DNA of 64,000 bases, taken from positions 182,988-246,987 of the forward strand of contig JACSZT010000008.1 of assembly GCA_014332815.1 (NCBI GenBank), in the 5' to 3' direction. Within the stretch, counting starts at the first letter, position 1. Each line of letters opens with the position of its first letter. Source of the DNA: Weissella confusa. GTDB lineage: Bacteria; Bacillota; Bacilli; Lactobacillales; Lactobacillaceae. Positions 20,475 through 57,464 of this stretch are shown piece after piece. The position numbers were made by a program, and so were the translations under genes. The notes beneath the pieces were generated by a model. It made no database searches. It was not told the DNA's origin and was given only the letters and a program-made list of their open reading frames with translations.

Positions 20475-20595
20475 TAAAAATCCTCCGTGGAAAAAATAAG
20501 TATTTTTCCAAACTACCATAACTGGGAGGATTTTGACAAGGTCGTTCTGAAAAACGCTTATTGCCGATAAGGAATGATTTTGCTATGCTGTAAGT

Positions 20596-20634
20596 TAGTG
20601 GTTCGTAACCATCCCACTCAAAAAAACTAGGAGA
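20596..20634 (+). promoter_or_regulatory. preQ1-I riboswitch
   Basis: AGTGG pairs with CCACT around GTTCGTAACCATC, and the A-rich tail CAAAAAAACTAGGAG follows. This reproduces the minimal class I preQ1 aptamer: a short stem, a C-rich loop, and an A-rich tail that folds back, with the SD at its 3' end. Binding of preQ1 (7-aminomethyl-7-deazaguanine, a queuosine precursor) is expected to hide AGGAG and shut off translation of the next gene, the transporter QueT. It is immediately upstream of the start codon, supporting translational control. Confidence 0.93.
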
Positions 20635-20643
20635 GAATTAAAT

Positions 20644-26842: not shown

Positions 26843-27955
26843 ATGCCGACATTCATCAAAAAAATACTATCTGACAAAACTTTAGCAATTACGACTATCT
26901 TGAGCGTTCTTGCATTACTTTTTGGCCAAGTGGCTTGGACGGACATCAACGTCCATACCATTGTGGCCTTAGCCGCTTTATTACTACTAGTTGGTGTCTA
27001 TGAGCGAACTGGGGTCTTGGTCGCCATCGCGACGACCATTATTAAAAAGAGTCGCACGACGCGCCAAGTTATTTTAGTGACGCTATTGCTGTCATTCTTT
27101 GGCTCGATGATTTTCACCAACGACGTGGCCATTCTAACGTTGGTACCAATTTTTGTGACAATCGCCCGCAAACTTGAATTAAAGATGGTGTTACCAGTCA
27201 TCTTTATTACGATTTTTGCGAACTTAGGGAGTGCCTTCACGCCGTTCGGTAACCCGCAAAACCTTTATCTAGCGTCACATTATCATTTAACACTGGGACA
27301 TTTTTTGCAGCTGTCACTACCAATCGGCATGATTAACTTAGTGTTCTTGTTACTCAGTCCGTTTGCCTTTAAAAATGTGCCCATCCATGATATCGAACTA
27401 ACTGCGACAAAAATAGAGACACGGACTGTCATTATCTTGGTAATTAGCACCCTCTTAGTACTAGCCGGCATTTTGAATCTCTTTCCAATTTGGGGTGCCT
27501 TGTTGGTCAGCATCGTCACAGCATTGCTACTCAACCGCCAAACCTTTGGCCAAATCGATTATGGCATCTTATTGATGTTCGTTGAGTTCTTTATCATTGT
27601 TGGCGCATTAAGCCGCATTGAATGGGTATCCGCCATGATTAAGCTTGGTATGACAACGCCAGCAATGACGTTCATCACAGGAGCAATCTCAAGTCAATTC
27701 ATTAGTAACGTGCCAGCAGCGGTGTTGTTATCAAACTTCACTAGCCACGTTTCGCCACTGTACCTCGGAGTAACAACTGGCGGGTTGGGTACGTTGATTG
27801 CATCATTGGCCAACTTACTCGCTTGGCGCCAATTTGCACAACATACAAGCGATCAATCATGGCACTTTCCACTACGCGCGATGCTAATCAATGGTGTGCT
27901 ACTCATTATCTACTTGCTTATTGGGTTGGGACTCATTATGCTTAGACTTAACTAA
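26843..27955 (+). CDS. SLC13/ArsB-type anion permease
   Basis: Transporter of 370 residues with about ten helices in the ion transporter (IT) superfamily. The paired hallmark loops are visible: FTNDVAILTLVP in the first half, and ISSQFISNVPAAVLLSNF in the second. GSAFTPFGNPQNLYLA is the conserved NPQNL segment of ArsB/NhaD/SLC13-like proteins. Candidate substrates are dicarboxylates, citrate, or Na+/arsenite; no accessory ars genes are nearby, which argues for an organic anion. The start follows GTGGGGTG. A tiny membrane gene follows 24 bases later. Confidence 0.83.
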   Translation: MPTFIKKILSDKTLAITTILSVLALLFGQVAWTDINVHTIVALAALLLLVGVYERTGVLVAIATTIIKKSRTTRQVILVTLLLSFFGSMIFTNDVAILTLVPIFVTIARKLELKMVLPVIFITIFANLGSAFTPFGNPQNLYLASHYHLTLGHFLQLSLPIGMINLVFLLLSPFAFKNVPIHDIELTATKIETRTVIILVISTLLVLAGILNLFPIWGALLVSIVTALLLNRQTFGQIDYGILLMFVEFFIIVGALSRIEWVSAMIKLGMTTPAMTFITGAISSQFISNVPAAVLLSNFTSHVSPLYLGVTTGGLGTLIASLANLLAWRQFAQHTSDQSWHFPLRAMLINGVLLIIYLLIGLGLIMLRLN

Positions 27956-40785: not shown

Positions 40786-40960
40786 ATTAGGGCGTCAAAA
40801 CACTCCAAAAGTGACGCCCACGCGACAAAAAAGGCGTCAAAAAGGCCGAAAAGTGACGCCTTGCACCCGAAGGGTGGTCCCAAAAGAAATGCCCGCACAG
40901 CGGGGTTATCCCACGGTGTGGGATCATTTCCCCTTAACCTGTTATCAAATTAGTTTTTTG
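40786..40960. other. Candidate origin of transfer (oriT)
   Basis: Non-coding region between the backbone and mobilisation genes. It holds two tandem dyads with identical half-sites (GGCGTCA / TGACGCC, inner spacing 14 bp in both; 40790-40819 and 40831-40862) repeated 42 bp apart. CCCGC-ACA-GCGGG follows at 40892-40904, then ATCCCAC-GGT-GTGGGAT at 40908-40924. Paired dyads for an accessory protein next to a GC-rich hairpin with a nick region are the usual oriT layout. The next gene encodes an RHH protein, and the relaxase lies 2.5 kb further. Confidence 0.72.
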
Positions 40961-43120: not shown

Positions 43121-43441
43121 ATGGCGGATTTTGATTTAAAAAGCATTATGACGCAGCTTAACAATTTAGAGTTTAATGAGCCAATTTATACGGGTGAAAC
43201 GGTCACAGCTGAAACAAATTTTGAACCGTTGTACGATCCTGTTGTGGACCATCCAAGATATTATTGGATGGCTCAAATATGTCATATCCTGAGTAAAAAC
43301 TTTGGACTGTCATACGCTGCAATTGGAAGAATTTTGAATGAGCCTGAAGCAAATGTACGTCGATGGGTTAAAAAAGTTGCACATGACTTCACATCCTTTT
43401 CAGAGATTCAGGAGGTTTTTACAAATGAAAACAGGTGGTAA
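43121..43441 (+). CDS. HTH protein overlapping the relaxase gene
   Basis: Protein of 106 residues. The C-terminal half contains a likely helix-turn-helix (LSYAAIGRILNEPEANVRRW). The N-terminal half is acidic. It overlaps the relaxase start by 17 bases and so is translated with it. It may be an oriT-binding helper or regulator of the mob operon. Confidence 0.65.
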   Translation: MADFDLKSIMTQLNNLEFNEPIYTGETVTAETNFEPLYDPVVDHPRYYWMAQICHILSKNFGLSYAAIGRILNEPEANVRRWVKKVAHDFTSFSEIQEVFTNENRW

Positions 43442-44915
43442 GGCAAACTTTGCTGTTAATGAGCACGGCAACGGTATGGTCATAATGCCCATGCAATTTG
43501 TCACGGCCAACGCAGCAAATTCTCGTGGTCAAAAATTTGCGGATCTGGTCGATTACAGTTTGAGGAACGAGGCTATTCTGAATGAAAACAACGTTCCTGT
43601 TAATAAAACTAACAATGACGAACTAACAACAGATATTTTGAACCAATTAGCACAAGAGGGTTATGCTACTCGTGCGGATGCGGTGACAGAAACGTATCCA
43701 ATTTTTAATTCTGAAAAACTCAATTTAAACGATCATGATATTTCGGAGCTTAAAAAGGACTTGCAAACTGCTCAGGATAATGGAAACACACTTCATGAAC
43801 ATGCATTCTCAATCCGCGCAGATTGGCTGATTGAAAATGATCTGTATAATCCAGACACAAAAGAACTTGATCAAAACGCCTTGAAACAAGCTGAACAAAA
43901 CATTGTGAATAGACTTTTTCATAATGGCCAGGCTTTACCATTGGGTGAGAGTCCCGATGATGTGGTGTGGTTTGGTGTCATCCACCAAGATACAGATCAT
44001 TTGAACATGCACCTATGGTATGTGAAAAAATCTAGAGAAACGCGACCAGAAATGCTTCATTCCAAAACTGGTGAGCCGAAAGGCGTTGTCAAATTATCCG
44101 AAAAAAATAGAGGCCTGGCCGACTTCAGGCGGTACCTGATGAGTGAGGGAGTCAAAGAAAAACGTAATAAGGTTTATGAACGTGTTGATAATTTACGAGT
44201 CAACATCCGTGAAAGTTCATTGGAAGCTTTGGATTCGACTAATAAGTATTACGAGGACTTGCGAAAGATATATGTTTTGCTTCCACAAGACTTACGAGGC
44301 AGGTGGAAAGTGGGAAACACAGACCAATTGGTTACGGACCCACAAATAAGTCGAATGGCCGGTGCTAATGTACAAATGGAAAAGTTGATTAATAAGCTGC
44401 TTACGGATGATTTGAAAGATGAGTATGAAGCCTTCAAACTGGAAAACAAGCAACTGAATCAAATGGCAACACGCGATAATGGACAAATTCACTCGCAAAA
44501 CATTTTCGCAATCAGCGAACGCAATGAACGACGTTTACGAAAAGAGATGGCCAATAGAATTTACCGACAATTCAATGAAAACTTTAAATCGGCTAATTCT
44601 GAATTATCGAATATTACTGACCAGGACAAAAATCGCCGGGACAACTATGTTCGAGGAGCAGATGGTACTTTCGAACGTATCAAATTTGATGCGTTATCAA
44701 GCGGTCAGGACCCAAAACGGACGGTTGTCACGGCAGTAGCGGCTAATTCACTTAGCCGTATAGCAAACGGGCTTAGAAGGGGCGCTAGACGCGATTTAGA
44801 GACAATGCATAGATTTATTCGACAACAAACCCAACTAGACAATATGACCATGACTGAAGCTGCAGAGCATGCAACTAAAGAACAATTACGTTCTGACAAA
44901 GGTTTTCGACGATAA
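43425..44915 (+). CDS. MobP-type relaxase (MobP2-like)
   Basis: DNA-nicking transferase of 496 residues. The N-terminal region (MQFVTANAANSRGQKFADLV) resembles MobP2 relaxases. The metal-binding three-histidine motif is visible as HQDTDHLNMHLWYV near residue 185. The catalytic residue near the N-terminus could be Tyr in DYSLRNEAIL. The enzyme would cut one strand at oriT and lead it into the recipient. The start follows GGAGG in the 3' end of the previous gene. The C-terminal 200 residues are charged and helical. No coupling protein or type IV secretion gene is present in the window. Confidence 0.85.
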   Translation: MKTGGKANFAVNEHGNGMVIMPMQFVTANAANSRGQKFADLVDYSLRNEAILNENNVPVNKTNNDELTTDILNQLAQEGYATRADAVTETYPIFNSEKLNLNDHDISELKKDLQTAQDNGNTLHEHAFSIRADWLIENDLYNPDTKELDQNALKQAEQNIVNRLFHNGQALPLGESPDDVVWFGVIHQDTDHLNMHLWYVKKSRETRPEMLHSKTGEPKGVVKLSEKNRGLADFRRYLMSEGVKEKRNKVYERVDNLRVNIRESSLEALDSTNKYYEDLRKIYVLLPQDLRGRWKVGNTDQLVTDPQISRMAGANVQMEKLINKLLTDDLKDEYEAFKLENKQLNQMATRDNGQIHSQNIFAISERNERRLRKEMANRIYRQFNENFKSANSELSNITDQDKNRRDNYVRGADGTFERIKFDALSSGQDPKRTVVTAVAANSLSRIANGLRRGARRDLETMHRFIRQQTQLDNMTMTEAAEHATKEQLRSDKGFRR

Positions 44916-49327: not shown

Positions 49328-51805
49328 TTAGTTTTCTCGCTTCTTAATACCCAAAAGTGACAGGGCACTCGTTAGAAGCAGAACGGCCGCAACACCGTTA
49401 GTAGACTTTTGTGAAGCACCGGTTTCTGGCAACACCACATCGTGTACTAAAGACGTAAGTTCAACTGGATTCGATGCCTCTGTAGATGGGTAATCCTTTG
49501 AATTGCTACCACGTTGTACACTGACTGGGAGCAAATCGGTTTCATCGGCATTAGTCGATAGCACCATTGAATTTCCTGGAGCTTGTTGGTCGTTATTGAC
49601 TGTCTTATTGGCCATTTTGTTTGCAGAGTCAATCGCATCCTGGGCGGCCTTTCCAGCTGAAGTAACTGCTTCATTAGCTTTGTCCAAGTTTTGTTGAGCC
49701 TGCAATAATGCACTCTTAGCACTATCCAAGTCACTTTGTGCCTTTTGTGCTGCAATCTTTTTCACGTTTTGAGTAGCTAGAGCAACGTCAAGATTGTGTT
49801 GAGCGTTAGCAAGAGTCGCCTCGTCCTCACGCAATTGATCATTTGCTGCCTTTAATACTTGTTGACGAACAGCCAATTCGGTTTGTAATGCTTGCGCATC
49901 AGAAACCAATGTAAGTTTCTTTTGTGCGTTAGCTAGATTATCTTTTGCAACTGAGAGGGTATGAGTTGCTTCAGAAATCTTGCTCTTATCAGCTTCGATA
50001 GCCTTAAGTGTGCTTTGCAACTTTGTCTTTGCCGATTGAAGTTCTGAATTTGCTTGATTAGCCACCTTAGTTGCAGCGGTCAAAACACTTTGTGCATCGT
50101 TGTTCGCCTTGGATGCAACTTCTACCAAAGAAGTTGCATTCTTGCTGTTTTCAGTATCAATCTTTAATTGATTTTCCGCGTTAGCTAAGTTTGCTTTAGC
50201 CTGGTTTACTACTGATTGTTGCTTCGCATAAGCAGGGTTAGCAATCCAGCCAGTGTTTTGGTTGACGTAAGGAGCATCAGTTACCGTCATGTCACTACGG
50301 TCAACGGCATAAGGCGTCATAACATAAAAGTCCATTAGGAAGTCGCCGTCAGGCGTCCAGTAAGCTCCAAAGGCATTTGTGTAGACGGTGCTACCATACT
50401 CTTTGTTCGAGTCAATGAGCAGATTATCACGGTGTCCCCAATCTTGGGCACCATCTTGATAAGCCATGGCAGTTAAGGCATTCAAGACTTGAATTTTAGC
50501 TTCAAGCATCGTACGTGGGGTAGACTGTCCCATACCTAGATTTTGTGCAATAGACACATGACCGCGATTATTGTCTGAGAAGTATGAATCCGACGTGTAG
50601 TGGTTGTTCTTAGTATTAGCGGTTGCTAAACGCTTATTCATTTCGACAAGGGCCGCTGCTTGTGACGCGTTCGTGATGTGCAGTGGTGATAGTCCATTCT
50701 GAGCACGGAACCAATTAATTAGCGTCAATTCATAATTGGCCAAATCTTGTTGTTGTGCATCGGTCATTCCTGAAGCTGAAATGATATCAGAGGCATCCAA
50801 TCCATTTCTGCCATCATATGAGTACCAATTTGTATAGAATGGATCATATTCATGACCATCAGCGTTACCTGGTTTAACAAGCTTATCAGGCAATTGATTT
50901 ACTTCTTGAATCGTGCTTGCGGCTGTAATGGTTGAACCTGTAGCAGCAGGCTTAGCAACTGGAAGAGACGCGACACTTGTAGGCGTGTTATTCAACTTAG
51001 TTTCTTCCTGGTTGAGTTTATCTTGCGCAGTATTGAATGCTTGTTTATCTGAAGCAATTACTGAAGCTGCATTGTTTTGTAATGCCTTAGCTTGATTCAA
51101 AGCCGTTTGAGTTTTATCGGCTGCTGACTTTGCAACTGCCTCAGATGAGTTGGCCAACGATGCATTACTTGAAGCAACATTTACAGCTTGAGAATCGTTA
51201 ACAGCTTGGTGATTATCCATAGCCAAGGCGTCATTCGCTGAATTCAAAGCAGCGCTTGCACTATCAACGGCCGTGGACTTTGCAACGACAACTGAAGATG
51301 CCGAAGCAATTGCACTAGGTTGATTAGTGATTGCTGATTGAATTTCCTGAACACTGTTGCTTGCATTTACAACGGCAGTCTGATTGCTGCTTACGGTGTT
51401 TGAAGCAGTAGTAACATTACTTTGGGCAAGAGAAACGGCATCATTCGCTGAACTTAAGGCACTATTTGCTACATCAGCATTTGATTGGGCTACCGCAACA
51501 TTTGAGCTAGCGACTGAAACTGACGCTTGTTTATCCGCTACTTGTTGAACAACCGCTTCAGAAGAACGAGCATCATCAGCGGTTTGTAGTGCCCGATTTG
51601 ATACGCTATCGCTTGAAGGCATTGCAACTGAAGGCTGATTGTCCGTTGGTGCACTAGAAGTTGGTACTACCGATACAATTTCCTTTTGCGACACAGATGA
51701 AACGGTATCCGCGTTTGCTACCATTGTTGTCCCAGTGACGCCGGTAAGGGCAAATACAGAAGCAACAACCCACATCTTTCCTGACTTGTACATTTTCTTA
51801 CGCAT
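49328..51805 (-). CDS. LPXTG cell-wall protein with SEC10/PgrA surface-exclusion domain
   Basis: Wall-anchored protein of 825 residues. A KxYKxGKxW-type signal (KMYKSGKMWVVASVFALTG) is followed by an Ala/Ser-rich coiled-coil region (residues about 60-285). A central domain (about 300-530; ANYELTLINWFRAQNGLSPL, GHRDNLLIDSNKEYGSTVY) resembles the CAP-like SEC10/PgrA surface exclusion domain. A second coiled coil and the sortase motif LPETG near residue 792, a helix and KKREN complete it. In enterococcal pheromone plasmids this family lowers redundant mating. Adhesion is the main alternative role. It starts after GGAG. Confidence 0.88.
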   Translation of the reverse strand: MRKKMYKSGKMWVVASVFALTGVTGTTMVANADTVSSVSQKEIVSVVPTSSAPTDNQPSVAMPSSDSVSNRALQTADDARSSEAVVQQVADKQASVSVASSNVAVAQSNADVANSALSSANDAVSLAQSNVTTASNTVSSNQTAVVNASNSVQEIQSAITNQPSAIASASSVVVAKSTAVDSASAALNSANDALAMDNHQAVNDSQAVNVASSNASLANSSEAVAKSAADKTQTALNQAKALQNNAASVIASDKQAFNTAQDKLNQEETKLNNTPTSVASLPVAKPAATGSTITAASTIQEVNQLPDKLVKPGNADGHEYDPFYTNWYSYDGRNGLDASDIISASGMTDAQQQDLANYELTLINWFRAQNGLSPLHITNASQAAALVEMNKRLATANTKNNHYTSDSYFSDNNRGHVSIAQNLGMGQSTPRTMLEAKIQVLNALTAMAYQDGAQDWGHRDNLLIDSNKEYGSTVYTNAFGAYWTPDGDFLMDFYVMTPYAVDRSDMTVTDAPYVNQNTGWIANPAYAKQQSVVNQAKANLANAENQLKIDTENSKNATSLVEVASKANNDAQSVLTAATKVANQANSELQSAKTKLQSTLKAIEADKSKISEATHTLSVAKDNLANAQKKLTLVSDAQALQTELAVRQQVLKAANDQLREDEATLANAQHNLDVALATQNVKKIAAQKAQSDLDSAKSALLQAQQNLDKANEAVTSAGKAAQDAIDSANKMANKTVNNDQQAPGNSMVLSTNADETDLLPVSVQRGSNSKDYPSTEASNPVELTSLVHDVVLPETGASQKSTNGVAAVLLLTSALSLLGIKKREN

Positions 51806-52431: not shown

Positions 52432-52626
52432 CTAATTGTGTACGCTTCTTGCATTTTTGCTTTGTGTCCGTCGCGTGTACGTGTCTCCGGATTGAATTAT
52501 TCCCTGTTGCAACAATTCAAGTCTAAGAGCGCGATCTTCATAAACTTCAGTATTGATGCTTAAAAAGGCATCTGGGGCGACACGACTGAATAGTCGTTTG
52601 AATCGCTGAACGGATTGTCTAACCAT
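52432..52626 (-). CDS. Hypothetical protein of 64 residues
   Basis: Basic small protein starting MVRQSVQRFKRLFSR after GAGGG. It overlaps the end of the preceding gene by 67 bases in another frame, so coding is less certain than for neighbours. The ribosome binding site is the main support. Confidence 0.45.
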   Translation of the reverse strand: MVRQSVQRFKRLFSRVAPDAFLSINTEVYEDRALRLELLQQGIIQSGDTYTRRTQSKNARSVHN

Positions 52627-53084
52627 GTTTGTCCCTCGAAACTTTCTTGTGCAGTCGGAGTTGTTCCGGCCAAGCGTTTATCAATCGCTTCATCCAGCGG
52701 ACTCCATTTTTCATATGTGAAGAACGGAGAGGCAAAACCGTATTTTCGATCTAACTCAACCAATTCATTTTCCAAGGTTTCTGTGCTTTCCTGGTTTCTG
52801 GCTTTTCGTTCCTCAGTGAGGTTCTTTTCAACTTTTTTTACGTAGATCATATAGTTGGTCAATGAACCAAATTCATCATTAATTAGCTGTAACTGATGAT
52901 TAAACGCATCTTGCTGCATTTCGGAAATTTTGTATTCAAGTTCGGCAAGTTCAGAAACACCAACAGAATCAAGCTCATCCTGGTGGACGATATACCAAAT
53001 CTTCCTTGGTGATCCATGCAATCTTGTCTCGCGATTGAACGAATCACGCAGCTCATCAGAGAAATCTGACAATAGTTTTCGCAT
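52560..53084 (-). CDS. Hypothetical protein of 174 residues
   Basis: Charged, helix-rich protein (MRKLLSDFSDELRDSF; EYKISEMQQDAFNHQLQL; KKVEKNLTEERKARNQEST) with probable coiled coil in the middle and a Pro-rich tail. It starts after AGAAAGGA. It is the first gene downstream of structured leader R1, though more than 290 bases separate them. Confidence 0.65.
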   Translation of the reverse strand: MRKLLSDFSDELRDSFNRETRLHGSPRKIWYIVHQDELDSVGVSELAELEYKISEMQQDAFNHQLQLINDEFGSLTNYMIYVKKVEKNLTEERKARNQESTETLENELVELDRKYGFASPFFTYEKWSPLDEAIDKRLAGTTPTAQESFEGQTWLDNPFSDSNDYSVVSPQMPF

Positions 53085-53606
53085 ATTTCGTAATCCTTTC
53101 TAAGGGCTATCACTGACTGGGACAAAATCACCACAGGCAATGGTGGATGCACGTTATAAACCATTCATTCTAGGTGCCAAGGGTTTTGTGCACTATTTAT
53201 CGAGCATCTCATTCAGTAGTTAGCTAATTTGCGGTCTATTTTGGCGCCCACTTTCCATATGTATCCGTCCTGACTGAAGGGCGGCAGTAATTTTTCGGTT
53301 TCCCTCAACCCCTTTAACTTTTTCCCGGTCCTCTTTTGTGACCATCGTTGTTTCATTTTGACGAGTCTGCAACACGATGGACAGTTTTCAAACGCAAGGC
53401 CGGCGTAGCCGAACGCAGTGGTGCCTTGCGTTTGAAACTAGAGTTACTTGTGCGTAGCACTTAGAAACTCTGTCTGTCGTATTGTGGGATTGGCAAAAGG
53501 AAACGATGGTTAAGAAGTGGGCGGTGGGCGAAGCTAATTTGACCCCCGCTTGCGGGGACTGGGGTGGGCGATGGCCAAATGTGTGTTTCACATTTGACGA
53601 ACTATA
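53085..53606. other. Gene-free region holding leader repeat R1 and its downstream leader
   Basis: About 520 bases with no convincing gene on either strand. It contains R1 (53382-53567), and the AACGATGGTCACAAAAGAGG segment toward the gene at 53084 that recurs in shortened form after R2 (AACGACCATAAAGGCCGGG). The rest shows no recognisable signal. Confidence 0.5.
53382..53567 (-). repeat. Structured leader repeat R1
   Basis: Three hairpins in fixed order. H1: a 17-bp stem with one bulge (53382-53399 / 53423-53439) enclosing GGCGTAGCC. H2: AGAGTT / AACTCT enclosing GTGC / GCAC with a conserved CTTAGA (53440-53471). H3: CCCCGC-TT-GCGGGG followed by ACTGGGG (53541-53567). The same plan recurs in R2-R4, so R1 belongs to one family. 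Read on the minus strand it precedes the group of genes that begins at 53084. Confidence 0.8.
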
Positions 53607-53870
53607 TTAAATGTATTTTTCCGCCAGTAGCACAATGTCTTGTGGTTGGAAGAAATCTGTGATGATACCTTGTGTACCGTCCCAACTGGTTAAGAACTTG
53701 TCCGCAGTGTCGGGGCGCATATTCTTATCCAAATGCCATGAACGAATTGAAATGTAGCCGTCTTCTGGTTCCATGTCAGCCCAAATGGCAACTTTGTCAT
53801 TTACAATCATTGGTTCTGTTCCGTCAGACGCTAAGAAAGCTTGTGCCTTTTCAAATAATGTCTTGTTCAT
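53607..53870 (-). CDS. Small protein of 87 residues, paralogue of gene at 56404
   Basis: Starts MNKTLFEKAQAFLASDGTEP after GAGG. It resembles the protein encoded at 56404-56706 (LEQAKAFLESHGTVKLSFGN), including an N-terminal FxxAxAFL and a central WADxEPEDGYISI-type strand pattern. Family function is not recognised. It lies directly downstream of structured leader R2. Confidence 0.65.
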   Translation of the reverse strand: MNKTLFEKAQAFLASDGTEPMIVNDKVAIWADMEPEDGYISIRSWHLDKNMRPDTADKFLTSWDGTQGIITDFFQPQDIVLLAEKYI

Positions 53871-53951
53871 TAGTAGATTCCTCGCTTTTTCCCGGCCTTT
53901 ATGGTCGTTGCTTAATTTGTCATGTTGACGTGATGGCAGTACATCGAGGAG

Positions 53952-54125
53952 TTCGAAACACAAGGGCGGCAAAGCCGTTCATATACCCTTGTGTTTCGAA
54001 TTAGTGTGCTTTCACGCTTTAGCGTTTAGGCACACTCCTTGAGGTATTGTTAGCTCGGCAATGTGACAAGCAACGATCATAAGGGCGGTGGTTTGTAATT
54101 TGATCCCCGTTTGGGGGCTGGGGGG
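53952..54125 (-). repeat. Structured leader repeat R2
   Basis: H1: a perfect 15-bp stem TTCGAAACACAAGGG / CCCTTGTGTTTCGAA enclosing GGCAAAGCC. H2: AGTGTGC / GCACACT enclosing CGCTTTAGCG. H3: GATCCCCGTTTGGGGG then CTGGGG. Stem sequences differ from R1 while pairing is kept. It precedes the gene starting at 53870 on the minus strand. Confidence 0.8.
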
Positions 54126-54147
54126 AAGTGTGGAGGCTGAGCCTCCA

Positions 54148-54417
54148 TTATTGGATGTTCCAGTTACGCAATGTCCCTTGTGTAATAGTAGAAAGCCGGT
54201 TAAGAAATGATACCAGCGGCATGGTGGGCTCGAATGTTTCTGCAATCAAATCAATAACGTAGTTATACTGCACAAATGCCATTGCAAAATCTCTGGTTAC
54301 GAGCTTGAATTTTGTATCAGAAAATACATCGCTTGATATAAGAATCGAAACTGTGGATGCAGTATTAGTAATATGGAATGCAAAGTTTCCGCTTGGTGTT
54401 TGAACTTTTTTGATCAT
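54148..54417 (-). CDS. Small hypothetical protein of 89 residues
   Basis: Starts at MIKKVQTPSGNFAF, 8 bases after GGGGT; a longer frame reaching 54642 runs back through a hairpin and terminator and is not credible. A beta-strand-rich N-terminal half is followed by a helical end. No family recognised. It belongs to the leftward cluster of tiny genes. Confidence 0.6.
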   Translation of the reverse strand: MIKKVQTPSGNFAFHITNTASTVSILISSDVFSDTKFKLVTRDFAMAFVQYNYVIDLIAETFEPTMPLVSFLNRLSTITQGTLRNWNIQ

Positions 54418-54506
54418 AAGTGATACCCCGAAATACTGTTTCAAATTTAATGATAATTCCGTGAACGAACGCTTGGAAAAATGGCGGAAATGAATACTGA
54501 GTGCAG

Positions 54507-54530
54507 TTGATCCCGCTTGCGGGGCTGGGG
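54507..54530 (-). repeat. Solo copy of leader hairpin H3
   Basis: GATCCCGCTTGCGGGG-CTGGGG matches H3 of R1-R4, but H1 and H2 are absent. It lies between a terminator (54537-54558) and the gene starting at 54417, so this gene has only the H3 part of the leader. Confidence 0.7.
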
Positions 54531-54536
54531 TATTAA

Positions 54537-54558
54537 ACAAAAAAGGCCGAAGCCTTGG
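54537..54558 (-). terminator. Terminator with TTCG tetraloop
   Basis: On the minus strand AAGGC-TTCG-GCCTT is followed by TTTTG. It ends the gene at 54569. Confidence 0.85.
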
Positions 54559-54568
54559 TTTGTACCTT

Positions 54569-54898
54569 CTAATCGAGAATTTCTGAATACGCGCGTTCAA
54601 ACTGGTTCTTTTGTTCGCCGGTTGCAATATTCCATTTTTCAAAAAACAAATCGTTTAATAGCTCATATTCTTCTGAATAAATCTCCATGTATTCTTTGTT
54701 ATCCAGTTCGTAGAAATGCCACAAATTGTGGTTTAATGCTGCAACTAATTCAGCCAGGTAAATGGGGTTATGGCTATCATTCACGAATGCCTTTAACCGT
54801 TCGATTGTTTCTAGAATTGCCTTGCCTCCAAAACGATTGGCAATGGCCAAATCTTCATAAACTGTTGTTTCCGTTTGTCGTCCAAATACTACTGCCAT
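54569..54898 (-). CDS. Hypothetical protein of 109 residues
   Basis: Helix-rich protein starting MAVVFGRQTETTVYEDLAI after AAGGAGG. Aromatic and acidic residues are frequent in the middle (LAALNHNLWHFYELDNKEY region). No domain recognised. It follows the gene at 54917 with 18 bases between and shares a transcript. Confidence 0.65.
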   Translation of the reverse strand: MAVVFGRQTETTVYEDLAIANRFGGKAILETIERLKAFVNDSHNPIYLAELVAALNHNLWHFYELDNKEYMEIYSEEYELLNDLFFEKWNIATGEQKNQFERAYSEILD

Positions 54899-54916
54899 TT
54901 TTATAGACCTCCTTGT

Positions 54917-55168
54917 TTATTTAAGTGTCACATCTACACTTTGAAATGTGTTTCGACCACCTAATAGGCGCGGGTAGTTACCCACAGTTACCAGAACTTC
55001 TGCACCGATTGGGAAGCTGTCTAATTTAGCTCCACTATCTGCCGTATACGTGCCAATGAAGCCTGTTTCATCAGAAATTTTGACAAAACCGTGTGCCAGA
55101 TGACTGACCAATACACCGTTGAACTGGACGAACATGTTTTCGCCTTCAAAATACACGTTGTTAATCAT
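54917..55168 (-). CDS. Hypothetical small protein of 83 residues
   Basis: Beta-rich protein starting MINNVYFEGENMFVQFNG; the start is the second ATG, with GAGAGG seven bases upstream. The pattern suggests a small barrel (FIGTYTADSGAKLDSFPIGA). It is the first gene after structured leader R3. Confidence 0.6.
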   Translation of the reverse strand: MINNVYFEGENMFVQFNGVLVSHLAHGFVKISDETGFIGTYTADSGAKLDSFPIGAEVLVTVGNYPRLLGGRNTFQSVDVTLK

Positions 55169-55258
55169 CACAAAACCTCTCATTTCTTTTGTCCTGGGCC
55201 AAGCCTGATGCGGCTGGCCTATCTCGTTGAGACAGGATGTTTATTTCAGGTAACGGCG

Positions 55259-55453
55259 GTATTTGCAAAGCCGGCGCAGCCGAACGTAGTGGTGCCTTGC
55301 AAATACTGCTAGAGGCACTTAGTGTGTAACACTTAGAGCCTCTGTTGCCTGATATAAATTGATGGCTCATAAGAGAGGGGACAGACGTATTGGGCGCCCA
55401 GGCGGCGAACGCCGGCGGCATTTGATCCCCGCTTGCGGGGTCTGGGGTTTGGG
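55259..55453 (-). repeat. Structured leader repeat R3
   Basis: H1: GTATTTGCAAxGC / GCxTTGCAAATAC enclosing GGCGCAGCC. H2: AGAGGC / GCCTCT enclosing AGTGTGTAACACT with CTTAGA (55311-55343). H3: GATCCCCGCTTGCGGGGTC then TGGGG. A further 60 bases on the gene side (55195-55258) are homologous to the same part of R4, including a GCTGGC..TATCTCGTTG block. Confidence 0.8.
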
Positions 55454-55497
55454 GCAGAGCCGCCCGTTGGGGTGGATGCCATCACATTTAGTAAATT

Positions 55498-55962
55498 TCA
55501 ATCTTTCGGCGTGACGTTAACCCATTTGCCGTGCCTAAATAAATAAGCGTATTCAATCATTAACCCTAGATTGTTTAACCATTCGTCAACGCTTGAATAA
55601 ATTACAGCGTCTACGCCAGTCTCACCTCTATCTCGTCCGTAAAATCTTGAATAGTCGAACGATTGATACTCTGTCTTAATGCGTCGTACTTGCTCCGCAG
55701 GTAGTTTAGCAAGCTGTTCGGCGTATTCCGGGAGGTCTGGCATAAAATCAAAACCAAATAATCTGACGCCCTCGCTTGGCTCAATGTAGCGACCAATATA
55801 ACTTGCGTCACCTAAATTGATTAAAGCCGTGGCTTTCTCCAATGAGTTGTAATAACTTTTTAGAGTCTTCAAAAGGTAGTCGGGGTATCCGTCCCAATGG
55901 CTATAAATTACTTTGACTGTTCCGTCGTCTTGCAGGACACCAACATTTGCGCGTGTACTCAT
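55498..55962 (-). CDS. Hypothetical protein of 154 residues
   Basis: Starts MSTRANVGVLQDDGTVKVIY. The YSHWDGYPDYLLKTLKSYY segment is a conserved-looking motif of small plasmid and phage proteins. Acidic overall. It overlaps the preceding gene by four bases (ATGA). Function not recognised. Confidence 0.7.
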   Translation of the reverse strand: MSTRANVGVLQDDGTVKVIYSHWDGYPDYLLKTLKSYYNSLEKATALINLGDASYIGRYIEPSEGVRLFGFDFMPDLPEYAEQLAKLPAEQVRRIKTEYQSFDYSRFYGRDRGETGVDAVIYSSVDEWLNNLGLMIEYAYLFRHGKWVNVTPKD

Positions 55963-56219
55963 TCGTCGTCCTCCTTTGGGTTAAGCGTAAATTGCAACCC
56001 ATTTTCTTTGGTGGTCTTGAATAGCTCCAAATACTTCGGGTCTAACATTTGCTTAGACTTGTTTGCTTCTCGAACACTCCAAACGTGCTCCATTGCCTGA
56101 TATTCATCAGGGGCGATTGTAGACGGCTTGACGCCCATATCCAGTAATAGCAAAGCTTGATAGAATAACTTTGGGCTTTCCTTTTGTAGGGCGGAAAGTG
56201 TGCTGTGAATGGTGTTCAC
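55959..56219 (-). CDS. Hypothetical protein of 86 residues
   Basis: Starts at GTG (NTIHSTLSALQKESPKLF); the upstream frame is open and the ribosome binding site is unclear, so the real start may be a little earlier. Helical. Its stop overlaps the next start at ATGA. Confidence 0.55.
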   Translation of the reverse strand: MNTIHSTLSALQKESPKLFYQALLLLDMGVKPSTIAPDEYQAMEHVWSVREANKSKQMLDPKYLELFKTTKENGLQFTLNPKEDDE

Positions 56220-56242
56220 TAGGTTAATTGATACACTTGCTT

Positions 56243-56392
56243 CTACAATTTCCTCGTAACCTTTGAAAGCATTTCCTTGTAGTGCTTCTTTGGGACGCGG
56301 GTTTCCTTGTATTGGTAAGTCATATCAGAGATTGATTGGGACATCTTATCCAAAGTTAGCTTTGAAAAATCGTCATAGTATTGTCGTGCCAT
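56243..56392 (-). CDS. Hypothetical protein of 49 residues
   Basis: Tiny basic protein starting MARQYYDDFSKLTLDKMSQ after AGGAGG. Lies 11 bases after the gene at 56404 in the same operon. No motif recognised. Confidence 0.55.
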   Translation of the reverse strand: MARQYYDDFSKLTLDKMSQSISDMTYQYKETRVPKKHYKEMLSKVTRKL

Positions 56393-56403
56393 GTTTTGAC
56401 CTC

Positions 56404-56706
56404 CTAGTAGAATTGACCGTAAAATCGACGTAGCGTTTGCAAGTCCGATAGTGTTAGCCACGTTAGGAACTTCGACGCTTTACCGCGACGGGGGCGGGGG
56501 ATACGAGTTGCAATCATAATCTTGTTACCCAGCTTTCCGTCATAATCTTCTTCGTAAAGTCCGACCTCAAACATGACTGGGTTATTAGGGTTATCAACTA
56601 ATAAGGCATACCCGTTCCCAAACGATAGCTTGACCGTTCCGTGGCTCTCCAAAAAAGCCTTGGCTTGTTCAAGGAAATACTTATCCGACATTTTGTTGTG
56701 CTTCAT
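56404..56706 (-). CDS. Small protein of 100 residues, paralogue of gene at 53607
   Basis: Starts MKHNKMSDKYFLEQAKAF after GGAGG. It shares the N-terminal FLxQAKAFLxSxGT block and a central strand-rich segment (NGYALLVDNPNNPVMFEVGL) with the 87-residue protein at 53607. Both follow a structured leader (R4 and R2). A recognised function is lacking. Confidence 0.65.
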   Translation of the reverse strand: MKHNKMSDKYFLEQAKAFLESHGTVKLSFGNGYALLVDNPNNPVMFEVGLYEEDYDGKLGNKIMIATRIPRPRRGKASKFLTWLTLSDLQTLRRFYGQFY

Positions 56707-57095
56707 ACAGACGCACCTCCACATAGTATTTTTGTCACCCTTGGCTTTGTACCGGCTACTGCCTGTTGTAGCTGGCTTATCTCGTTGTGACATAGAATTT
56801 TTATCGGGTTACGGGCCGTTTGCAAGGACGGCGCAGCCGAACGAAGTGGTGCCTTGCAATAAGGACTAGCGAATCTTGGTGCTTTAGCACCTAGAAACGC
56901 TGTGACCTGATATAAATGATTGGCACATAAGAGAGAAGCCACGAAAACAGGTAGTCCGGCATTTGCCGGGAAGTAGATCCCCGCATGGCGGGGTCTGGGG
57001 GGACAAGGTGGATAAAAAAATGCAAAATACAAAATCAACGCTAGTTTCATATGGCATGTCGACAGCGTATAATTATATGTAAGGGGGAATATATT
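56707..57095. other. Gene-free region holding leader repeat R4
   Basis: About 390 bases. It contains R4 (56820-57003), the leader segment toward the gene at 56706, and a divergent promoter region for the + strand gene at 57096. An ORF in frame upstream of 56706 crosses the hairpins and is not credible. Confidence 0.5.
56820..57003 (-). repeat. Structured leader repeat R4
   Basis: H1: TTGCAAGG / CCTTGCAA enclosing GGCGCAGCC. H2: AGCG / CGCT enclosing GGTGC-TTTA-GCACC with CCTAGA (56868-56901). H3: GATCCCCGC-ATG-GCGGGGTC then TGGGG. H1 and H2 stems differ from R1-R3 but all pairs are kept. It precedes the operon starting at 56706. Confidence 0.8.
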
Positions 57096-57464
57096 ATGAC
57101 AAAAATTGTTCAAAGTTATATGGCGGCTACAAATTATAATGGCATTCCATCAATATCGCTCGTACAACTTTTAAAGTCTGACGAAGCTTCAGATAAAATC
57201 ACTCCGGCACAATATAGTTTCATTATTTACAGTGTGACCGGCACGGCAGCATCTAATTTTAATGACACGGCTATGCAAGAGCTTGGCAAACAAATTCGCA
57301 ACTGGATTGCAAATTCATTTGAGCAAATCATTAATGTACAAGATTTCAACGTTTCGTTCTCATTTACAGACAAGTATCGAGAAAATTATGAATTTGCGAA
57401 CGAAGTTTTTGGATTAATAAAGGATCATCTTGATACTGGGACAGTACCGTTATCTTTTAAGTAG
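57096..57464 (+). CDS. Hypothetical protein of 122 residues
   Basis: Soluble protein starting MTKIVQSYMAATNYNGIP after AAGGGGGAA. No domain recognised. It is one of the few + strand genes in this block, divergent from the R4-led operon. A strong terminator follows at 57565. Confidence 0.65.
   Translation: MTKIVQSYMAATNYNGIPSISLVQLLKSDEASDKITPAQYSFIIYSVTGTAASNFNDTAMQELGKQIRNWIANSFEQIINVQDFNVSFSFTDKYRENYEFANEVFGLIKDHLDTGTVPLSFK

Follow-up and report, generated by a model that had tools for sequence, protein, structure and literature searches.

The window analysed here is a 64,000-nt stretch of Weissella confusa contig JACSZT010000008.1 (positions 182,988-246,987; the source contig has 337,397 bases), and all coordinates are given on its scale. 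From about 37 to 87 kb, past the window end, extends an apparent conjugative element in which four structured repeat units, R1 to R4, stand before groups of small leftward genes. We find that these units are real, selected and strand-specific DNA structures that carry a split promoter in the right direction. The best explanation, and one that we hold to be probable, is that they are Frpo-like single-strand promoters of a new architecture. An earlier note on this DNA had left open whether the repeats act as an RNA leader or as promoters on single-stranded DNA. The promoter gains support because the -35 and -10 boxes are split, because the -10 box and the stable stem mismatches are strand-specific, and because of the direction of the genes; the RNA leader has lost ground.

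The repeats lie where the earlier note had placed them and share the order of hairpins that it described, H1, H2 and then a C-rich H3. It overlooked a long outer stem, P1, which encloses H1 and H2, which makes each unit a three-way junction, with a length of 184-206 nt in the folded stretches. The features of the four units are:

53332-53515, + strand (the proposed folded strand; RNA would run leftward): R1 unit, P1 around H1 and H2, from the fold and a covariance model match at 53385-53484
53426-53431, + strand: R1 -35-like TTGCGT in H1's 3' arm, which is on the non-template strand of the folded promoter; from a promoter search in the fold
53480-53485, + strand: R1 -10-like TATTGT in P1's 3' strand, separated from the -35 by 16 nt when H2 is skipped
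53538-53564, + strand: R1 H3 box, TTTGACCCC..GGGGACTGGGG
53892-54088, + strand: R2 unit (P1, H1, H2), from the fold and a model match at 53951-54049
53989-53994, + strand: R2 -35-like TTGTGT, from the promoter search in the fold
54045-54050, + strand: R2 -10-like TATTGT, separated from the -35 by 16 nt when H2 is skipped
54099-54123, + strand: R2 H3 box
54507-54530, + strand: solitary H3 box without H1 or H2, between two leftward genes
55195-55400, + strand: R3 unit (P1, H1, H2), from the fold and a model match at 55256-55356
55297-55302, + strand: R3 -35-like TTGCAA, from the promoter search in the fold
55353-55358, + strand: R3 -10-like TATAAA, 17 nt from the -35 with H2 skipped (the restricted-window search described below scored an overlapping hexamer 2 nt on)
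55421-55447, + strand: R3 H3 box
56753-56943, + strand: R4 unit (P1, H1, H2), from the fold and a model match at 56815-56914
56854-56859, + strand: R4 -35-like TTGCAA, from the promoter search in the fold
56911-56916, + strand: R4 -10-like TATAAA, 17 nt from the -35 with H2 skipped
56973-57000, + strand: R4 H3 box

As the earlier note had suggested, a covariance model (CM) was built from R1-R4. It found, at E<0.1, 54 copies (R1-R4 included) in 21 loci of Weissella and Leuconostoc elements, these loci being that of the window (L006) and 20 chosen from the matches of a family-wide search. All copies of one locus lie on the same strand, and there are two to four per 20-kb locus, before separate gene groups. 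From the 54 copies a script chose 20 clusters, represented at a similarity ratio of 0.85, which are used in the counts below. Family-wide, matches at E<=0.01 occurred in 35/397 genomes: eight of the same genus (the source genome included), nine of Leuconostoc and 18 with weak matches in other genera, at about 28-36 bits, several of them identical and on 3-kb contigs. An order-level search at E<=0.001 gave 7/395 genomes, three of them weak and outside the family. A plasmid blastn search with one Weissella unit gave no match, and DNA similarity alone is therefore too weak to trace the units.

Rfam holds no family above its gathering threshold at R1-R4, as the earlier note's reading required, and at E<=10 only sub-threshold matches appeared there. 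Among open-access papers, the range of our literature search as distinct from subscription papers and preprints, we recognised none that describes this repeat family. The note's remark that no described family has this layout thus holds for Rfam, but it did not name a published analogue, EGeRS1 of pLS20 (PMC8708921). In related elements, Rfam matches to rli28 and SpF66_sRNA (L052, 5363-5547; L059, 8416-8633) lie near units, not at them.

Some details of the layout had to be revised. H2 is present, but the CTTAGA assigned to it is not constant, TTAG being found in 36/54 copies. The C-rich H3 is likewise present, but varies in stem length and sequence; what recurs is CCC..GGG(N)CTGGG, which follows the copy at 22-111 nt, on its 3' side, in 54/54 copies. 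Because this box follows every copy and is nearly absent elsewhere (53 matches in total on both strands of 20 loci that hold 50 copies), we regard it as part of the unit. Three Leuconostoc units (L050:8278-8377, L055:7463-7564 and L057:8272-8373) have a 3' H3 box lengthened by a long inner hairpin, with CTGGGG kept.

The observation that the stems differ and still pair, from which the earlier note had deduced a selected structure, was confirmed by strong compensatory change. Across R1-R4 both sides have changed in 15 of the 31 core pairs, which none of 500 column shuffles and no slid register matched. In 49 distinct copies, aligned by fitting to the CM, 94.5% of cells are paired and the covariation score is 0.711, against 0.171 when shuffled (0/500); one of the five measures in this test, that of further pair types, was equalled by 43/500 shuffles. 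A partner-swap test, which is alignment-free, ranked a cluster's own partner strand best of 20 in 14/20 clusters for P1 and in 17/20 for both H1 and H2. As single strands, R1 and R3 each fold better than all of their 200 shuffles (z of -4.0 and -4.8, respectively, for + strand DNA, and of -3.7 and -3.4 for - strand RNA).

When the + strand is folded, a -35 (TTGnnn) lies in the 3' arm of H1 and a -10 of the TATAAA or TATTGT type in the 3' strand of P1. With H2 skipped they are 16-19 nt apart, compared with about 50 nt in duplex DNA. The 3' side reads TTGCGT-16-TATTGT in R1, TTGTGT-16-TATTGT in R2 and TTGCAA-17-TATAAA in R3 and R4. In a free search for -35/-10 pairs with H2 skipped, the best pair was the TTG of H1 with the -10 just past the junction, at a spacer of 16-19, in 16/20 clusters (the exceptions were L042:8283, L039:11479, L046:11801 and L050:8278). 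H2 is 30-44 nt long, yet this spacer is kept. Restricting the search for the -10 to positions 6-12 nt past H2 gives a spacer of 16-19 in 18/20 clusters, partly by construction, and in the same restricted window it is 46-60 nt with H2 left in. A random-deletion control for H2 skipping was discarded as uninformative, since any deletion between the boxes restores the spacing.

The -10 is a property of one strand. Its mean score is 3.46 on the folded 3' strand and 0.74 on the complement of the 5' strand, with the + strand higher in 17/20 clusters (Wilcoxon p=1.7e-4). A peak occurs at that place on the + strand only; composition-matched draws have a mean of 1.79 (sd 0.52), the maximum of 2000 being 3.56. 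Single stem mismatches are biased in the same way: 53 are of the kinds that are stable on the + strand (A-G, G-A, G-G, G-T, T-G, T-T), against 13 complements. In the core alignment of 49 distinct rows the GT to AC wobble count is 59 to 16, this alignment having been fitted to the + strand model. Internal loops occur in the unit folds near the -10 and start region. The genes are oriented accordingly: among 27 loci, largely from genomes of the family search, that hold a conserved small gene, 41/41 CM matches at E<0.01 are opposite to it in strand. At this threshold 18/27 of the loci have a unit and 9/27 have none, some of the nine having another strong fold nearby.

The promoter that we propose would exist only while the + strand is single-stranded. 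That strand would fold into the three-way junction, where the template would be one unbroken stretch, made up of P1's 5' strand and H1's 5' arm and leading to the leftward genes. Opposite it, H1's 3' arm and P1's 3' strand would act as the non-template strand; H2 would be bulged out of the spacer, and the fold would set the TTGnnn and TATAAA/TATTGT-type boxes 16-19 bp apart. Melting may be eased by mispairing at the -10 and by the small internal loop that follows, and RNA polymerase would then transcribe the + strand leftward into the small genes. The result in a recipient would be early, transient expression, lasting until the second strand is made. We infer transfer of the + strand, use of the fold by polymerase, and a role of the genes in establishment or anti-defence. 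The H3 box might insulate these genes from read-through of the duplex, as EGeRS1 does in pLS20, or might serve priming; this is a guess from analogy.

Single-strand promoters have been shown in enterobacterial plasmids. In Frpo/ssi of F and ColIb-P9, a fold of the transferred strand (T-strand) rebuilds -35 and -10 in a stem, and these sequences precede leading-region genes for which the T-strand is the template (PMC9849209, PMC11541004). The units resemble them in three respects: the fold sets -35 and -10 at promoter spacing (16/20 clusters), pairing is imperfect at the -10 and start, with the better -10 on the non-template strand (17/20), and the genes behind the units use the folded strand as template (41/41 matches). 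They differ in being three-way junctions with a whole hairpin looped out of the spacer, in the H3 box that follows each, and in their hosts, which are Lactobacillales with MobL relaxases. As a control we used two of four folded F-plasmid regions, one before an antirestriction gene and one before ssb, taken as Frpo by position and fold and not by published coordinates. Their T-strands showed 9 stable mismatches to 0, the same bias as in the units, and the first has TTGCAT-15-TAAGAT in its 3' arm. The CM found no match in the F region. A blastn search with 53200-57100 returned 498 plasmid records, from Enterococcus (497) and Lactococcus (1), with the Frpo of F or ColIb not among them; the 40 matches listed fall inside a small gene and not a unit. 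The best explanation on these comparisons is that the units work like Frpo, to which they appear not to be homologous by the tests made.

The nearest Gram-positive analogue is EGeRS1 of pLS20 from Bacillus subtilis. It too occurs as multiple structured copies before leftward establishment operons of a MobL element, beside a YolD-like gene, and it has an H1-like hairpin, CACAAGGG..CCCTTGTG, on the same strand. It differs in its size, about 600 bp, and in the side hairpins inside its H1. The CM had no match in the EGeRS1 region, and what is shared is the setting and the H1-like hairpin only. A further structure, in Enterococcus faecium and E. mundtii, has its side hairpin placed elsewhere and stands outside the 54 copies. 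In the literature on Gram-positive elements we found no clear case of a single-strand promoter. PMC11541004 reports no Frpo-like sequence by similarity in its Streptococcus pneumoniae island; that study leaves MOBP2 elements out of its analysis and draws an Enterococcus durans island.

Which strand is transferred bears directly on this reading, and we therefore considered a candidate core of the origin of transfer (oriT):

40882-40946, + strand: proposed oriT core, a cloverleaf followed by CCCTTAACCTGTT, upstream of the relaxase gene, from a conserved fold and a CM

A counterpart with cloverleaf and CCCTTAACCTGTT lies at 27691-27757 (+) of locus L103. The core occurs in 22/397 family genomes and, in the 19 cases matched by coordinates, lies 1.4-2.7 kb upstream of the relaxase on the same strand. 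A match in pLS20 (E=7.5e-4) lies 37 bp away from the nick sequence published for it, hence very likely inside the 362-bp oriT of that element. The cloverleaf with CCCTTAACCTGTT is likely to be the oriT core of MobL elements. Most copies folded singly form the cloverleaf (those of L073, L121 and L127 do not), and single mismatches are of the kind stable on the + strand by 7 to 0, in related copies that are not independent. A pair tally from the first oriT model structure was dropped because that structure was out of register (51.3% of cells paired, with more pairing in the +1 and +2 slid registers); the model still located the sequence. The core is also found in four Weissella plasmids, three typed as non-mobilizable and one as mobilizable. 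Copies in small plasmids typed as non-mobilizable lie at L072 5996-6061 and at L073 2146-2209 and 10091-10154. In the stretches of those plasmids that were read no relaxase is listed, the PLSDB tables being incomplete, and they may ride on MobL elements.

Units share the strand of the MobL relaxase gene in 11/11 genomes with both on one contig, and that of the oriT core in 10/10. Relaxase sites usually have a hairpin 5' of the nick. This rule, which also fits the published nick of pLS20, points, when taken with the conserved motif 3' of the cloverleaf on the + strand, to the + strand, where the units fold. The proposed core therefore favours the + strand as the transferred strand, in which case the transferred 5' end would lie at or after CCCTTAACCTG of the core.

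The strand of transfer is the weak point of the single-strand promoter, and several observations tell against such a promoter. In pLS20, also a MobL element, the nick was mapped to the opposite strand (PMC5313138), and the transferred strand is the non-template strand of the establishment genes (PMC8708921, PMC5313138). On the basis of that nick, the later of these papers regards a single-strand promoter as highly unlikely for EGeRS1 (PMC8708921), and in our own reading of its fold the -10 is not at the right spacing. The units lie past the relaxase gene, which typically enters last (PMC11541004); their distance from the oriT core is 12-16 kb here and reaches about 45 kb in Leuconostoc. The second F control region had no match to the -35/-10 pattern. 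Within the family, the H2-skipped score exceeds that of the contiguous strand in only 13/20 clusters and that of the opposite-strand fold in 14/20, being equal in one and lower in five. Some clusters have a weak -10 (GATTGT, TTAATT, CACAAT), and the -35, being part of a well-paired stem, gives no information on the strand. The related copies are not independent of one another, and wobble pairs alone, counted by cluster, are not significantly biased (GT 10, AC 4; p=0.18).

We also weighed other roles for the units. They might act in leftward - strand RNA, as an mRNA leader or insulator whose terminators or attenuators silence the genes or sense a signal. The good folding of the - strand RNA of R1 and R3 would suit this, as would the position of H3, 25-51 nt past the stop codon of the upstream gene in R1, R2 and R3, and EGeRS1 stops read-through in its native direction in pLS20 (PMC8708921). 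However, most stem mismatches are of kinds stable on the + strand and not the - strand, an RNA has no use for a -10 kept on one strand, and R4, the rightmost unit, has no leftward gene directly upstream, yet is complete and has its H3. Nor does any promoter to transcribe such a leader stand out: duplex promoters are no commoner than in shuffles (7 found, 7.4 expected), with none inside the units. We therefore consider a leader unlikely.

Less likely still is that the folds are single-strand origins (sso), which would mainly prime second-strand synthesis by RNA polymerase or primase, with gene expression as a side effect. Masai and Arai are said to have found in 1997 that Frpo primes replication, which counts for this possibility. 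The conserved CS-6 motif of ssoA-type origins, TAGCG(T/A), is mostly absent from the units (present in 5/20 clusters and 18/54 copies), and the two to four copies in a 20-kb locus before separate gene groups also tell against an origin. Gram-positive sso elements do fold into RNA polymerase promoters (PMC4595007), and ssoA, ssoU and sso1 of ICEBs1 resemble the units as strand-specific folds read by RNA polymerase, but these serve second-strand priming (PMC4595007). Several copies close together might also suggest dispersed hairpin repeats of a transposon or miniature inverted-repeat transposable element (MITE) without a role; we regard this as highly improbable, since the stems differ in sequence yet pair, and strand and place before genes are fixed across genera.

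Returning to the single-strand promoter, the ORF (open reading frame) map bore out the claim that each repeat lies 5' of its own leftward group of tiny genes. The neighbouring genes are:

37668: RepA_N initiator, from a family search
39259: SSB-like protein, below the Pfam cut-off
43338-44915, + strand: MobL (PF18555) relaxase gene, from Pfam
52560-53084, - strand: leftward gene behind R1, 174 aa, no confident family
53607-53870, - strand: leftward gene behind R2, 87 aa from ATG
54148-55183, - strand: three leftward genes behind R3, of 88, 109 and 89 aa
55498-56706, - strand: leftward ORFs behind R4, two of which resemble halves of a widely conserved MTKxYYDDF gene

The MTKxYYDDF small gene is one ORF in relatives and two shorter ORFs here (55959-56461, -). 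Relatives of the conserved small gene occur in Weissella, Leuconostoc, Enterococcus, Latilactobacillus and others. None of five leftward proteins encoded in the window behind R2-R4 matched a Pfam family, and of seven window proteins tested one matched PHROGs of unknown function. Leftward genes of related loci encode a RadC-like protein (in four) and a DUF4942/methyltransferase protein (in one), among others. Among the Enterococcus plasmids with the conserved small gene, ssb lies nearby in the same direction in 3/3 of those read, and AbiE-type and ArdC-like genes do so in 2/3. Judged from sequence, this gene content fits an establishment region and proves nothing. Beyond the right end of the window, large ORFs follow one another in the rightward direction and look, by eye, like a secretion apparatus.

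If our reading is right, a covarying Lactobacillales family with a testable split promoter would indicate how Gram-positive elements start their early genes. The model lets such gene islands, possibly rich in anti-defence genes, be found by sequence, and the question of which strand MobL transfers becomes directly testable. More tentatively, and at odds that we would put below even, MobL elements of Bacillota may carry a whole class of split single-strand promoters from which the incoming strand launches a zygotic programme, with the sense strand of the relaxase operon as the transferred strand and EGeRS1 as a divergent member. Were such a MobL-wide class to exist, the published strand of pLS20 would need re-examination.

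Three further features of the window were recorded. A gene for an AAA_13 ATPase (PF13166; 45415-47649, +) adjoins the relaxase gene; we take this to be the kind of ATPase found in PrrC/RloC-like anticodon nucleases. Between the relaxase gene and the units lies the gene of a long surface-type protein (49328-51805, -), with an end that by eye is LPxTG-like. Outside the element, a PreQ1 riboswitch at 20592-20636 (+) scores above the Rfam gathering score.

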